DNA of 64,000 bases, from positions 1 to 64,000 of the forward strand of contig NZ_PTPZ01000008.1 in NCBI RefSeq assembly GCF_002943105.1, read 5' to 3'. Below are positions 10,970-51,032 of this stretch, piece after piece. Origin of the DNA: Cloacibacterium normanense. Lineage in GTDB: Bacteria; Bacteroidota; Bacteroidia; Flavobacteriales; Weeksellaceae. Within the stretch, counting starts at the first letter, position 1. Each line of letters opens with the position of its first letter. The notes under the pieces are model-generated. The model searched no databases. It was given only the letters and a program-made list of their open reading frames with translations, and was not told where the DNA came from. Both the position numbers and the translations under genes were made by a program.

Positions 10970-11005
10970 AGCAATTTGTTTTAAAAATTTTTGTTAATTC
11001 AAGTG

Positions 11006-11035
11006 CAAATATATAAAATTCTGTGCCAATACAAA
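11006..11035 (-). promoter_or_regulatory. Promoter of the acpP operon
   Basis: On the minus strand TTTG (11032-11035), an 18-base spacer and TATATTTG (11006-11013) form a close match to the Bacteroidota housekeeping promoter (TTTG, about 19 bases, TAnnTTTG). It lies 37 bases before acpP. Confidence 0.65.
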
Positions 11036-11115
11036 TTTTTTTCACATATTTTGATTTTAAATTATTGTAAATCAGTCTAATAATATTTTAGTAATATGAT
11101 TTAGAGATTAATTCT

Positions 11116-11123
11116 TAATTTTG
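11116..11123 (+). promoter_or_regulatory. -7 box for folE
   Basis: TAATTTTG matches TAnnTTTG and ends 17 bases before ATG 11141. It covers an upstream in-frame GTG (11123), which argues against that GTG as start. Confidence 0.6.
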
Positions 11124-11140
11124 TGACATTATTTCAGACT

Positions 11141-11806
11141 ATGAGTAACTTTTTTGAAAACGATGATGATGTTTTTACAGGCAAAGACCATACTCCGCTT
11201 CGTGAGGATGCTTTTGTAAAAACACCAGAAGAAAAAATAAAAATTATAGAAGAAAAGTTTGCAGAGATTATGCACACTTTAGGTCTTGATATGACCGATG
11301 ATTCTCTTAAAGATTCACCAAAACGTGTCGCAAAGATGTATGTGAACGAAATTTTTGGTGGACTTTTGCCAGAAAACAAACCAGGGATTTCTACTTTCAG
11401 CAATAAATATAAGTATAGACAAATGCTGGTAGAGAAAGATATCACGGTGTATTCTTTCTGTGAACATCATTTTTTACCGATTATTGGCAAAGCGCACGTT
11501 GCGTATATTTCAAACGGAGACGTAATTGGGCTTTCTAAAATCAATAGAATTGTTGATTATTATGCAAAACGTCCGCAAGTGCAGGAAAGATTAACGATGC
11601 AGATTGTAGATGCACTGAAAGAAGCACTCGGAACGAAAGATGTAGCTTGTATTATTGATGCGAAACATCTTTGCGTAAATTGTAGAGGAATAAAAGATAC
11701 CGCAAGTTCTACCATTACTGCAGAATTGAGCGGGATTTTTAGAACCAATCCTATTACCAGACAAGAATTCTTACATTATGTAGGAAGTCATGCGAAGTTG
11801 GATTAA
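11141..11806 (+). CDS. folE: GTP cyclohydrolase I
   Basis: Converts GTP to dihydroneopterin triphosphate, the first step of folate and pterin synthesis. From ATG 11141 it is 221 aa, the normal size. The zinc-binding CEHHFLP (Cys107, His110) and the later HLCVNCRG are visible, with the family strand QERLTMQIVDAL between. The GTG at 11123 is rejected because a -7 box ends on it. It is followed after 22 bases by a Cys-rich leader ORF and then cysS, so transcripts from folE may run into cysS. Confidence 0.95.
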   Translation: MSNFFENDDDVFTGKDHTPLREDAFVKTPEEKIKIIEEKFAEIMHTLGLDMTDDSLKDSPKRVAKMYVNEIFGGLLPENKPGISTFSNKYKYRQMLVEKDITVYSFCEHHFLPIIGKAHVAYISNGDVIGLSKINRIVDYYAKRPQVQERLTMQIVDALKEALGTKDVACIIDAKHLCVNCRGIKDTASSTITAELSGIFRTNPITRQEFLHYVGSHAKLD

Positions 11807-11828
11807 ATAATTTATCTAAAATAGTATT

Positions 11829-11891
11829 ATGACCAGATTTAAAAAAATATCACACCAGATTTTTACAACTATAATTATTTGTTGTTGCTGA
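11829..11891 (+). CDS. Candidate Cys-Cys-Cys leader peptide upstream of cysS
   Basis: A 20-codon ORF, MTRFKKISHQIFTTIIICCC, ends with TGT TGT TGC directly before TGA. It lies 65 bases upstream of the cysS ATG and 22 bases after folE, with an A/T-rich start context normal for this genome. A run of Cys codons before the gene for cysteinyl-tRNA synthetase is what a ribosome-stalling sensor of charged tRNA-Cys would look like. Cys-tract leader peptides are known from mycobacterial cysteine attenuation. No strong terminator hairpin follows; a weak 7-bp pairing of AGATTTT (11857-11863) with AAAATCT (11904-11910) spans the Cys codons. Function is inferred. Confidence 0.55.
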   Translation: MTRFKKISHQIFTTIIICCC

Positions 11892-11956
11892 TTTTTATAA
11901 AATAAAATCTTAATTCTTCATTTTTTTAAATCTATCAATCATTAAATAAAAATTCA

Positions 11957-13426
11957 ATGCAACTTAAAATATACAATTCGCTTTCTGCGGAAAAAGAAAT
12001 TTTCACACCTATTAACGGCAACAAAGTAGGAATGTACGTTTGTGGACCAACCGTTTACAGCAATGTGCACTTAGGAAATGTGAGAACTTTTATGAATTTC
12101 GACTTTATTTATAGAAGTTTGAAACATTTGGGTTATGATGTTCGTTACGTAAGAAATATTACAGATGCAGGACATTTAACAGACGATGGAGATGTAAATA
12201 ACGACCGTTTCGTTAAGCAATCTCGCCTAGAAAAACTAGAACCTATGGAAATTGTACAAAAATATACTGTAGATTTTCATAAAGTTTTAGAAAAATTTAA
12301 TCTTTTGCCTCCAACGATTGAGCCTACTGCAACTGGTCACATTATCGAACAAATTGAATTAACCAAAGATTTAATCGAAAAAGGTTTGGCTTATGAAAGC
12401 AACGGTTCTGTTTATTTTGATGTGCGTGCTTACAACGAAAAAGGCGGAAATTACGGCGAACTTTCTAAAAGAAATATAGACGAACTTTTTGCCAATACTC
12501 GTGATTTAGACGGACAAAACGAAAAGAAAAATCCACAAGATTTTGCCCTTTGGAAAAAAGCTTCACCAGAACATATTATGAAATGGATTTCACCTTGGGG
12601 CGAAGGTTTCCCAGGTTGGCATCTAGAATGTACTGCGATGTCTACCAAGTATTTAGGCGAACAATTTGATATTCACGGAGGTGGAATGGATCTTAAATTT
12701 CCGCACCACGAATGCGAAATTGCTCAAGGAAAAGGTTGCAACGGAGTTTCGCCAGTGAAATATTGGTTGCACGCGAATATGCTGACCATGAACGGACAAA
12801 GAATGAGTAAATCTACAGGAAACTACATTCTACCGCAGCAATTAATTTCCGGTGAAAATGATTTTTTTGAAAAACCGTTTCATCCAACTGTAGTTCGTTT
12901 TAATTTTTTACAAGCGCATTACAGAAGCGTTCTTGATATTTCAAACGAAGCGATGTTGGCTTCAGAAAAAGGTTTCCAACGTTTAATGGAAAGTTTGAAA
13001 GTTTTAAACACTGTCACGCTGAGTGGAGTCGAAGCGTCTTCTAGTTTTGACCTAAAAGAATGGAAACAGAAATGTTATGATGCTTTGAATGACGATTTCA
13101 ATTCGCCAATTTTAATTTCTCATCTTTTTGAAGCAGTAAGTTTTATTTTCAAACTAAAAGATGGAAAAGAGTCTATTTCTTCGGAAGATTTAGAAGAATT
13201 AAAAACCTTGATGAATGCTTTTGTGTTTGATGTTCTAGGTTTACAAAATATTGAAGAAAATAACAATTCAAAATTAGACCAAACATTACAAGTGCTCATA
13301 GAACTTAGAAATCAAGCCAGAAAAGCCAAAAATTTTGAACTTTCTGACCAAATTCGTGATAAGTTATTAGAACAAGGTATAGAACTGAAAGACGGAAGAG
13401 AAGGAACTTCTTACGTTTTAAATTAA
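11957..13426 (+). CDS. cysS: Cysteinyl-tRNA synthetase
   Basis: Charges tRNA-Cys with cysteine. It is a 489-aa class I synthetase with YVCGPTVY (zinc-ligand Cys29), HLGN in place of HIGH (38-41), [17 protein letters not shown] and RMSKSTGN (the KMSKS loop). A linker before the DALNDDFN helix holds the peptide [10 protein letters not shown], encoded by a dispersed repeat (13012-13040); relatives lack such an insert at this point. It is preceded by the Cys-tract leader ORF and followed by a strong terminator. Confidence 0.97.
13012..13040 (+). repeat. TGTCA...TGAGC dispersed repeat inside cysS
   Basis: TGTCACGCTGAGTGGAGTCG followed by AAGCGTCTT is a near match to the copies at 50195-50220 and 50934-50961 (both in reverse orientation) and 5297-5324. 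It lies in frame and encodes a linker peptide of CysS. Confidence 0.7.
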
Positions 13427-13448
13427 AAAAAAATAAATTTTTATAATA

Positions 13449-13487
13449 GACCCTTTTTGTGTTCTAAATGCAGAAAGGGTTTTTTGT
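13449..13487 (+). terminator. Terminator after cysS
   Basis: The stem ACCCTTTTTG / CAGAAAGGGT (one wobble pair) is followed by TTTTTTG. It lies 22 bases past the cysS stop. Confidence 0.8.
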
Positions 13488-13738
13488 TTTCTTGAAAATA
13501 ACTCCTGATTGTAAATTGGGAATACTTTTCACTAAAAAGGATAAATTTTCAACAGAATAGAATTTTTTAAAATACCTTAATTTTTTAGATACTTTACTAA
13601 ATATTATTATATCATAAAGAGACATTAAATCCCTTTATTTAAAGGCATAAATTATCAGAAACAAATTAAAAATCATATAATTAATTTTTTCTAAAGCATA
13701 TATATTTTTGTAAATTCGTGAGTTGAAAAACGAAAAAA
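13488..13738 (+). promoter_or_regulatory. malQ upstream region with -7 box
   Basis: This AT-rich non-coding stretch precedes malQ. TATTTTTG (13703-13710) fits TAnnTTTG, 28 bases before the ATG. A perfect small palindrome, CCTTTA-TT-TAAAGG (13632-13645), lies about 60 bases further upstream and could be an operator. Nothing else was recognised. Confidence 0.4.
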
Positions 13739-49994: not shown

Positions 49995-51032
49995 TTGAAA
50001 AACATTTTCAACATAAAATCTGAAGCAGATTTCCAAGCAGTATGTTTGGAAACATTTCTTTATCAGTACGAAAATGTAGAAGTTTACCGAAAATTTGTAG
50101 ATTTTTTAGGTAAAAATCCATCGGAAATAAAAGAAATAAAAGATATTCCATTTTTGCCCATTGAAATGTTTAAAAACCATTTGGTTTTAGACAAAGTCTT
50201 CGGCTCCGCTCAGACTGACAAACCTTTAAGTTATTTTCAAAGTTCGGGAACTACGCAAATTCAGACGCGTTCTAAACATTATATTGCAGATTTTAACCTT
50301 TACGAAGAAAGTATTTATAAGAGTTTTGAGCAGTTTATAGGGAAACCAGAAGATTATATTTTCTTAGGATTATTGCCCAATTATTCAGAAAATCCACATT
50401 CTTCATTGATTTATATGGTAGATTTCTTGATGAAAAAGTCTGGAAAGCCAGAAAACGGATATTTTCTTTATAATCACCAAGAATTGTTTGAACTGTTACA
50501 GAAATTAGGTCAAGAAAATAAAAAAGTAATTCTTTTCGGTGTTTCTTTTGCCTTATTAGATTTCCTAGAATCTCATAACGATTTTACGACTTTACAAATC
50601 AACGATTTTACAGTCATAGAAACGGGCGGGATGAAAGGCAGAAAAGAGGAAATGACCAAAGATGAACTTCTGAAAATTTTACAAAAAGGCTTCGGAACAG
50701 ACAAAATTTTCTCTGAATATTCTATGACAGAATTGCTTTCTCAGGCATATTCTCTAGGCGAAAATATATACGAAACGCCCAACTGGATGCGTGTTCTCAT
50801 CAGAAATACCGAAGATCCATTTTCTTATATGGAAGCAGGCAGAACTGGCGCTATCAATATTATAGACTTGGCGAATAGACATTCTTGCAGTTTTATTGCG
50901 ACACAAGATTTGGGCAAAATTGTAAATGATTTTGAGATTCTTCACTATGCTCAGAATGACAAACATGGGTTTCAGGTTTTGGGAAGAATAGACCATTCTG
51001 ATATTCGCGGTTGTAGTTTATTGGTTTCATAA
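49995..51032 (+). CDS. LuxE-like acyl-protein synthetase/acyltransferase
   Basis: A 345-aa protein of the LuxE/acyl-adenylating family. YFQSSGTTQIQTRSKH holds the SSGTT nucleotide-binding loop, GGMKGR and SEYSMTELLSQAY are further adenylation-like motifs, and QVLGRIDHSDIRGCSLLV closes the domain. It starts with TTG. Two dispersed TGTCA repeats lie inside, at 50195-50220 (encoding VFGSAQTD) and 50934-50961 (EILHYAQND). Relatives occur in surface-polysaccharide loci, and the acyl group and acceptor are unknown. It shares an operon with lpxH and the following gene. Confidence 0.8.
   Translation: MKNIFNIKSEADFQAVCLETFLYQYENVEVYRKFVDFLGKNPSEIKEIKDIPFLPIEMFKNHLVLDKVFGSAQTDKPLSYFQSSGTTQIQTRSKHYIADFNLYEESIYKSFEQFIGKPEDYIFLGLLPNYSENPHSSLIYMVDFLMKKSGKPENGYFLYNHQELFELLQKLGQENKKVILFGVSFALLDFLESHNDFTTLQINDFTVIETGGMKGRKEEMTKDELLKILQKGFGTDKIFSEYSMTELLSQAYSLGENIYETPNWMRVLIRNTEDPFSYMEAGRTGAINIIDLANRHSCSFIATQDLGKIVNDFEILHYAQNDKHGFQVLGRIDHSDIRGCSLLVS
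50195..50220 (-). repeat. TGTCA...TGAGC dispersed repeat inside the LuxE-like gene, first copy
   Basis: On the minus strand it reads TGTCAGTCTGAGCGGAGCCG then AAGACT. It is in frame with the host gene and matches the copy in cysS. Confidence 0.7.
50934..50961 (-). repeat. TGTCA...TGAGC dispersed repeat inside the LuxE-like gene, second copy
   Basis: On the minus strand it reads TGTCATTCTGAGCATAGTGA then AGAATCTC. It is in frame and encodes EILHYAQND in a loop before the last motif. Confidence 0.7.

Follow-up and report, generated by a model that had tools for sequence, protein, structure and literature searches.

A putative cysteine-codon leader ORF upstream of cysS in Cloacibacterium normanense and other Weeksellaceae

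A short ORF directly upstream of cysS in Cloacibacterium normanense is probably a leader peptide gene that acts in cis, gauging how much Cys-tRNA(Cys) is available and adjusting cysS accordingly. Comparison with related genomes makes a sensor function of this leader likely, and the data are best read as control of cysS by a ribosome-stalling leader that works with no intrinsic terminator and acts most likely on the initiation of translation. In the proposed mechanism, a ribosome would translate a peptide of the form MxxFKK...TTIICC(C) and, when charged tRNA-Cys is scarce, would halt with Cys codon 18 or 19 in the A site, beside the leader stop. The Cys-codon stretch, UGUUGU(UGC), would be able to pair with the complementary cysS start, AUGCAAC/U, and a ribosome stalled on this stretch would keep it from closing the cysS initiation region, so that more synthetase could be made. 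We infer that the leader is translated, that the ribosome stalls upon cysteine shortage and that the stall raises cysS output. The site of the read-out is held more tentatively, as translation initiation is given somewhat less than an even chance, with Rho access or mRNA decay as the routes that would otherwise apply.

The window, meaning the whole stretch of 64,000 nt that was analyzed, carries the following features at this locus.

11141 to 11806, plus strand: folE (GTP cyclohydrolase I), the upstream neighbor, ending 22 nt before the leader ATG; this neighbor is not constant
11829 to 11891, plus strand: leader ORF, MTRFKKISHQIFTTIIICCC followed by a stop, with 20 sense codons (start ATG at 11829) and TGA (11889-11891); conserved in relatives
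11880 to 11888, plus strand: Cys codons 18-20, TGT TGT TGC, the putative hungry codons; the first two invariant, the third lineage-specific
11892 to 11956, plus strand: leader-cysS gap of 65 nt, with no G, 7 C and no intrinsic terminator
11957 to 13426, plus strand: cysS, cysteinyl-tRNA synthetase, the proposed regulated gene; TIGR00435 equivalog, 441 bits (cut-off 340)
11957 to 11965, plus strand: cysS start ATGCAACTT (Met-Gln-Leu), in which GCAAC is complementary to the leader Cys-codon sequence GTTGC/GTTGT

The first-pass annotation of this DNA had described a 20-codon ORF ending in TGT TGT TGC TGA, 65 nt before cysS, and these coordinates were confirmed; its range of 11829-11956 covers the ORF together with the gap. 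Its view that such a Cys run is unlikely by chance was borne out by a survey of both strands of the window, where amongst 277 ATG-started ORFs of 15-30 amino acids this leader was the only one ending in CCC. The downstream gene is the sole full-length match in the genome to tRNA-synt_1e, the class-I CysRS Pfam model, and the second match to this model is partial (65 positions) and lies at the cut-off. The annotation had also reported no strong intrinsic terminator, in agreement with the zero intrinsic-terminator-like sites detected here within positions 11700-12100. A cmscan search of positions 11000-13700 returned no Rfam family other than a chance SNORA12 match inside folE, and no NCBIfam family was found for the leader peptide. 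Searches for further leaders in the same genome gave 18 TGYTGYTGYTRA sites (17 plus this one), with no other convincing ATG-started leader in the 16 loci read, and 33 ATHATHTGYTGY sites, with no other leader in the 30 loci read.

Conservation was followed in the family Weeksellaceae, where 80 cysS loci from named genomes were examined first and further genomes were then added. More than 50 leaders were read in Cloacibacterium, Chryseobacterium, Elizabethkingia, Epilithonimonas and Soonwooa, and 68 distinct 57-nt cores yielded the consensus MIKFKKVSxKIFxTTIICC. The ATG and Cys codons 18-19 were present in 68/68 cores; because the core-collecting pattern demanded an ATG, a Phe/Tyr codon and Cys-Cys, invariance there arises partly by selection, and the conservation argument therefore rests on the unselected positions. 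Across the 68 cores pS was 0.49 and pN 0.117, and this large excess of synonymous over amino-acid change indicates that the leader peptide is under purifying selection. Residues F4, I11, I16, C18 and C19 showed no amino-acid change, while codon 11 had undergone 7 codon changes and codon 16 had undergone 8, all of them synonymous.

Most of the core-selection bias is removed by a sequence-only 57-nt model (R1), and the few decayed exceptions also bound it. Strong R1 matches (37.8-61.6 bits) were obtained in 87 of 197 family genomes, with one per genome and never two, and after this strong set the scores fell from 37.8 to 24.9 bits or less. The strong matches spanned six genera (g1, g9, g11, g32, g35 and g44), and a 396-genome sample of the order gave no strong match outside the family. 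Amongst the weak matches away from cysS (24.9 bits or less), those that were fetched showed no leader. At all 38 of the strong loci checked by script, the leader lay 40-89 nt before cysS, with gaps mostly of 40-73 nt. A chance ORF was ruled out by the conservation of the leader across relatives together with the single strong model match per genome. The first-pass annotation had staked its proposal on conservation of the ATG and of the Cys codons in close relatives; both held, in single copy and linked to cysS wherever examined. The more specific pattern that it expected, a conserved MxxF...CCC stop ORF, stood as regards the ATG, Cys 18-19 and the excess of pS over pN, and failed as regards the third Cys codon, which is lineage-specific.

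The leader ORFs ranged in length from 19 to 32 residues, mostly 19-25, and the tails after Cys18-Cys19 varied, with endings (each followed by the stop codon) that included CC, CCG, CCC, CCDRIIF, CCERFS and CCCCKCCC. Additional Cys codons were recurrent in this variable tail, as in CCCCxCCC. Since the tail is free after Cys18-Cys19, the invariant unit is two tandem Cys codons near the stop. An ORF under coding selection that carries, near its stop, tandem codons for the amino acid of the controlled gene is what would be expected of an attenuator leader. The purifying selection on the peptide would also suit a small protein with a function of its own, such as a Cys-rich peptide acting in trans, whose gene shares an operon with cysS by happenstance. 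We regard this as very improbable, given the hypervariable C-terminal tail, the position of all examined copies before cysS and the unrelated Cys-run peptides found at the same place in other families.

The sequence upstream of the leader changed between loci, with folE in some and, in others, a gene ending ...HHLKAI and its stop 2 nt before the ATG; therefore, the leader travels with cysS. It was absent from g38 (Kaistella-like), Capnocytophaga and others and, as it is missing from many family members, it is not essential to cysS. Leader genes near structural genes are common in Bacteroidetes (PMC4833913), and the ORF could on that ground be a non-regulatory reinitiation aid that merely feeds ribosomes to cysS. 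We give this explanation very little credence, since the spacing in Bacteroidetes peaks at 11-14 nt (PMC4833913), as against mostly 40-73 nt here, and the tandem Cys codons would be left unexplained.

Several loci departed from the common pattern. In the decayed exception G155 (L063/L253), the reading frame ends in ...TTTI, a stop, a single C and a second stop. The leader of genome G056 (L251), MVKFKRISHNIIATTIICWR and a stop (...TIICWR), has lost its second Cys codon (to TGG), and the cysS of this genome starts Met-Ile-Leu rather than Met-Gln-Leu; the loss of the Cys codon and the loss of Gln2 in cysS are a single co-occurring change. Genome G040 (L336), which has no strong R1 match, carries a diverged ORF with several Cys codons, MIKLRKFSRRCFSYCCRELRIGNRCCRKLGFYHFNF, about 128 nt before cysS. 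Beyond the 38 script-checked loci, an intact leader (MIQFKRIAHKIFSTTIICC and a stop) lies 277 nt from cysS in genome G016 (L250).

Additionally, in other families of the phylum, 89 regions upstream of cysS were scanned for ORFs that have 3 or more Cys within 6 residues. Such a Cys-cluster ORF was present in 5 of the 89 regions, compared with 1.2% of shuffles, and the ORFs before cysS came from three further families.

Family f2: Cys-cluster ORFs MYTTNLSQFKQYFPAIENGCNSCCS and MQTSNLAQYKQFFKSIENGCNCCC
Family f14: Cys-cluster ORF MKILTSYFCSCCCCC and, from a second genome read separately, MRHSIISVLYSAGCCCCC
Family f18: Cys-cluster ORFs MIVFNTYCCCCCC and MNAPRLLFCCCC

The Cys-run endings in these families were GCNCCC, CSCCCCC, YCCCCCC and FCCCC, each directly before the stop. 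The two f2 leaders have the peptide NLxQ[FY]KQ[FY]F..IENGCN in common; between families, the f2, f14 and f18 peptides showed no evident resemblance, nor did they resemble the Weeksellaceae leader. As no peptide resemblance is evident across families, several independent origins of the Cys run before cysS are most likely in Bacteroidota. The cysS upstream regions sampled from family f3 yielded no Cys leader. The central proposal of the first-pass annotation, a stalling sensor of charged tRNA-Cys, thus gains support at the sequence level from codon-level conservation, linkage to cysS and convergent Cys-run leaders in three families.

A related explanation places the sensor in the peptide itself. 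The nascent chain (F4, I11-F12 and T15-I16-I17) would act in the exit tunnel, the stall would need both peptide and codons, and free cysteine or another ligand might be sensed. The residues before the Cys codons are indeed conserved beyond what a codon counter would need (7 and 8 synonymous changes at I11 and I16), and the common peptide of the two f2 leaders points in the same direction. Opposed to this, the f14 and f18 leaders have only their Cys runs in common with the Weeksellaceae leader, the two f14 N-termini differ from each other, and RNA pairing could explain part of the TTIICC conservation. We therefore consider an arrest-peptide sensor unlikely.

The preferred reading, in which the Cys codons themselves govern the cysS start, was examined through predicted RNA structure. 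Between the Cys run and the cysS start, the two f14 genomes have almost the same DNA, and their leader N-termini are different. The predicted f14 fold pairs GCUGUUGC-UGUUGUUG with CAACAAC-CGC-AAAACCAGC just before the AUG. Opening the start region was predicted to cost 11-13 kcal/mol in free RNA, compared with about 5-10 kcal/mol with a ribosome on the Cys codons, and the free opening cost of one of these loci (L344) was reached by 4 of 200 shuffles. As modeled, the f14 arrangement locks cysS at the level of translation, and a ribosome halted on the sensor codons would open the lock; these Cys codons appear, in the predicted fold, to be at once the sensor and the lock on the start site. With this strong predicted stem between Cys codons and start, L344 and L345 are a better model for the mechanism than the Weeksellaceae leaders. 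For f18 and f2, a ribosome on the Cys codons gave no predicted opening of the start region.

The evidence is weaker in Weeksellaceae, where the cysS start AUGCAAC/U is complementary to the leader UGUUGU and cysS codon 2 was Gln in all 105 leader-bearing rows of the cysS tree, with 0 changes over a tree length of 10.1, compared with 8 changes over a tree length of 6.7 in leaderless lineages. Amongst 50 sites equally variable in leaderless lineages, 2, cysS codon 2 included, were as fixed in the presence of the leader; an independent-pairs test of leader against Gln2 has few independent events and cannot reach significance. Leader codon 18 was TGT in 105/105 and underwent no change along the cysS tree, although the share of TGC in cysS bodies is 43%; this bias fits either pairing of the RNA or a preference for the codon read by wobble. 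A comparison of intra- and inter-species duplex energies for the leader against the gap or the cysS start gave no signal of co-evolution.

Three further elements of the window enter its predicted folding.

11865 to 11870, plus strand: ACAACT (Thr13-Thr14), a candidate 5' arm that could pair with the Cys codons; this pairing is weak in the sequence of the window
11835 to 11848, plus strand: AGATTTAAAAAAAT, 5' arm of a predicted 14-bp AU stem; z -3.45, not clearly common to relatives
11920 to 11933, plus strand: ATTTTTTTAAATCT, 3' arm of the predicted 14-bp AU stem, in the leader-cysS gap; pairs with 11835-11848

Most relatives have the Thr codons at 14-15, a better match to the Cys codons, and an ACAACA/UGUUGU hairpin is predicted in them with 87% of cells paired; covariation is absent, the 3' arm being nearly fixed by the Cys codons. 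Unlike this Thr/Cys hairpin of the relatives, the long-range AU stem dominates the window's own predicted fold. In the Weeksellaceae thermodynamic model, the cysS start was open, at a cost of about 1.3 kcal/mol, when the RNA was free, stayed open when a ribosome occupied the Cys codons, and was partly closed solely with a ribosome at codons 9-13. The start-closing amplitude was on average 1.0 kcal/mol larger than in synonymous shuffles. As modeled in Weeksellaceae, the effect of ribosome position is by itself no starvation switch. A broader scheme, in which MIKFKKVSxKIFxTTIICC would be an arrest peptide reading charged tRNA-Cys plus a second cue and Cys codons in Bacteroidota would close the cysS start by a design that arose several times independently, is speculative and, in our judgment, quite improbable.

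The base content of the gap bears on a Rho/polarity mode of attenuation, by which Rho would load on the bare RNA between leader and cysS and terminate transcription, unless a ribosome stalled at the Cys codons blocked its access. Against the window's 0 G in 65 nt, the gaps of relatives have on average 4% G and 12% C, and the sequences upstream of other genes in the window contain 10.7% G and 12.5% C; the gap is thus G-poor and not C-poor. This depletion in G and not in C would suit Rho, as would the lack of an intrinsic terminator in 11700-12100 and the adjacency of the window's Cys codons to the leader stop, and the same has been proposed for mycobacterial cys leaders by analogy with the tna operon (PMC1262725). 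On the other hand, the gap is only about 40-70 nt long in most loci and low in C, and its G depletion equally fits selection for an unstructured initiation region. We hold Rho attenuation to be a possible though doubtful alternative to control at translation initiation.

Cysteine-codon leaders are already known and, as far as the searchable literature goes, what is new here is a terminator-less cysS leader in Bacteroidota. The first-pass annotation had suggested a leader not yet described in this group. Indeed, no description of the Weeksellaceae cysS leader was found in the searchable literature; as a type, tandem-Cys uORFs before cysS are known from Rhodobacterales (PMC8632094). There, uORFC-8-2 has a conserved AUG and two tandem Cys codons, and ribosome-mediated attenuation has been proposed; it forms two stems, with Cys codons 14-15 in the first conserved stem and a U-run ending the terminator (PMC8632094). 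In both systems, the short uORF that lies directly before cysS contains a tandem pair of Cys codons, whereas the Weeksellaceae leader has its Cys codons at 18-19, belongs to another phylum and lacks an intrinsic terminator, and for this last reason it falls outside uORFC-8-2. Closer in its lack of a conserved terminator is the situation in mycobacteria, whose cys operons have candidate Cys-run leaders (PMC1262725), and cysteine-dependent elongation has been reported to regulate downstream genes in M. smegmatis (Canestrari 2020, as summarized in PMC9031893). The mycobacterial polycysteine sORFs likewise have a Cys run near the leader stop; they differ in peptide, phylum and target, which is a cys operon there and cysS in Weeksellaceae. 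They are also leaderless, whereas a leaderless start is indicated by promoter match in only a few Weeksellaceae relatives.

Induction of tna depends on free tryptophan sensed through the nascent peptide. As in TnaC leaders, a ribosome halted at the end of the short Weeksellaceae leader could mask the RNA after the stop; the likely signal here differs, being uncharged tRNA-Cys. Within the same class of bacteria, Flavobacterium psychrophilum has clues to leader peptides before operons for amino-acid biosynthesis, and the 5' UTRs of its aminoacyl-tRNA synthetase genes are structured; the accessible part of that study names no cysS Cys leader (PMC9723704). Amino-acid leader control in Bacteroidota has so far consisted of such general clues in searchable papers, of which this flavobacterial transcriptome study is one example, and the present leader is a concrete and easily testable case: the prediction is made at the level of named codons, the target gene is known, and relatives that carry the leader or lack it are numerous. 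Cys leaders before cysS seem to have emerged repeatedly and independently, which suggests that such control favors cysteinyl-tRNA synthetase as a target in the phylum. Bacteroidota generally do without Shine-Dalgarno initiation, and control of cysS by a stalled ribosome may therefore differ from textbook cases.

The 5' end of the transcript was approached through TAnnTTTG, the Bacteroidota-type promoter box. It occurred near the leader ATG in 4 of 85 upstream sequences; an exact box ends 4 nt before the ATG in L043, L053 and L059, and the remaining one (L144) apparently lies inside a coding end. In the f18 locus L360, the ATG of the leader is preceded, at a distance of 7 nt, by TATCTTTG. No such box stands near the leader ATG in most loci, the window among them. 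From these matches, the leader would stand at the 5' end of the transcript in L043, L053, L059 and L360, like the mycobacterial sORFs, and at loci without a box, the window included, it may lie inside a longer mRNA.

Two repeat-like sequences were also observed. At positions 1350-1460 of L144, from the Cloacibacterium relative G003, the leader runs on as CCRHCEK and a stop into CGTCATTGCGAGAAGTAAAACGACGAAGCA, which looks like a dispersed repeat inserted directly after the Cys codons. In the window, the repeat-like GTCACGCTGAGTGGAGTCGAAG lies inside the cysS reading frame at 13013-13034 (plus strand), with a second copy, bearing 2 mismatches, at 50198-50219 (minus strand); shuffles gave an expectation of none for these two copies.
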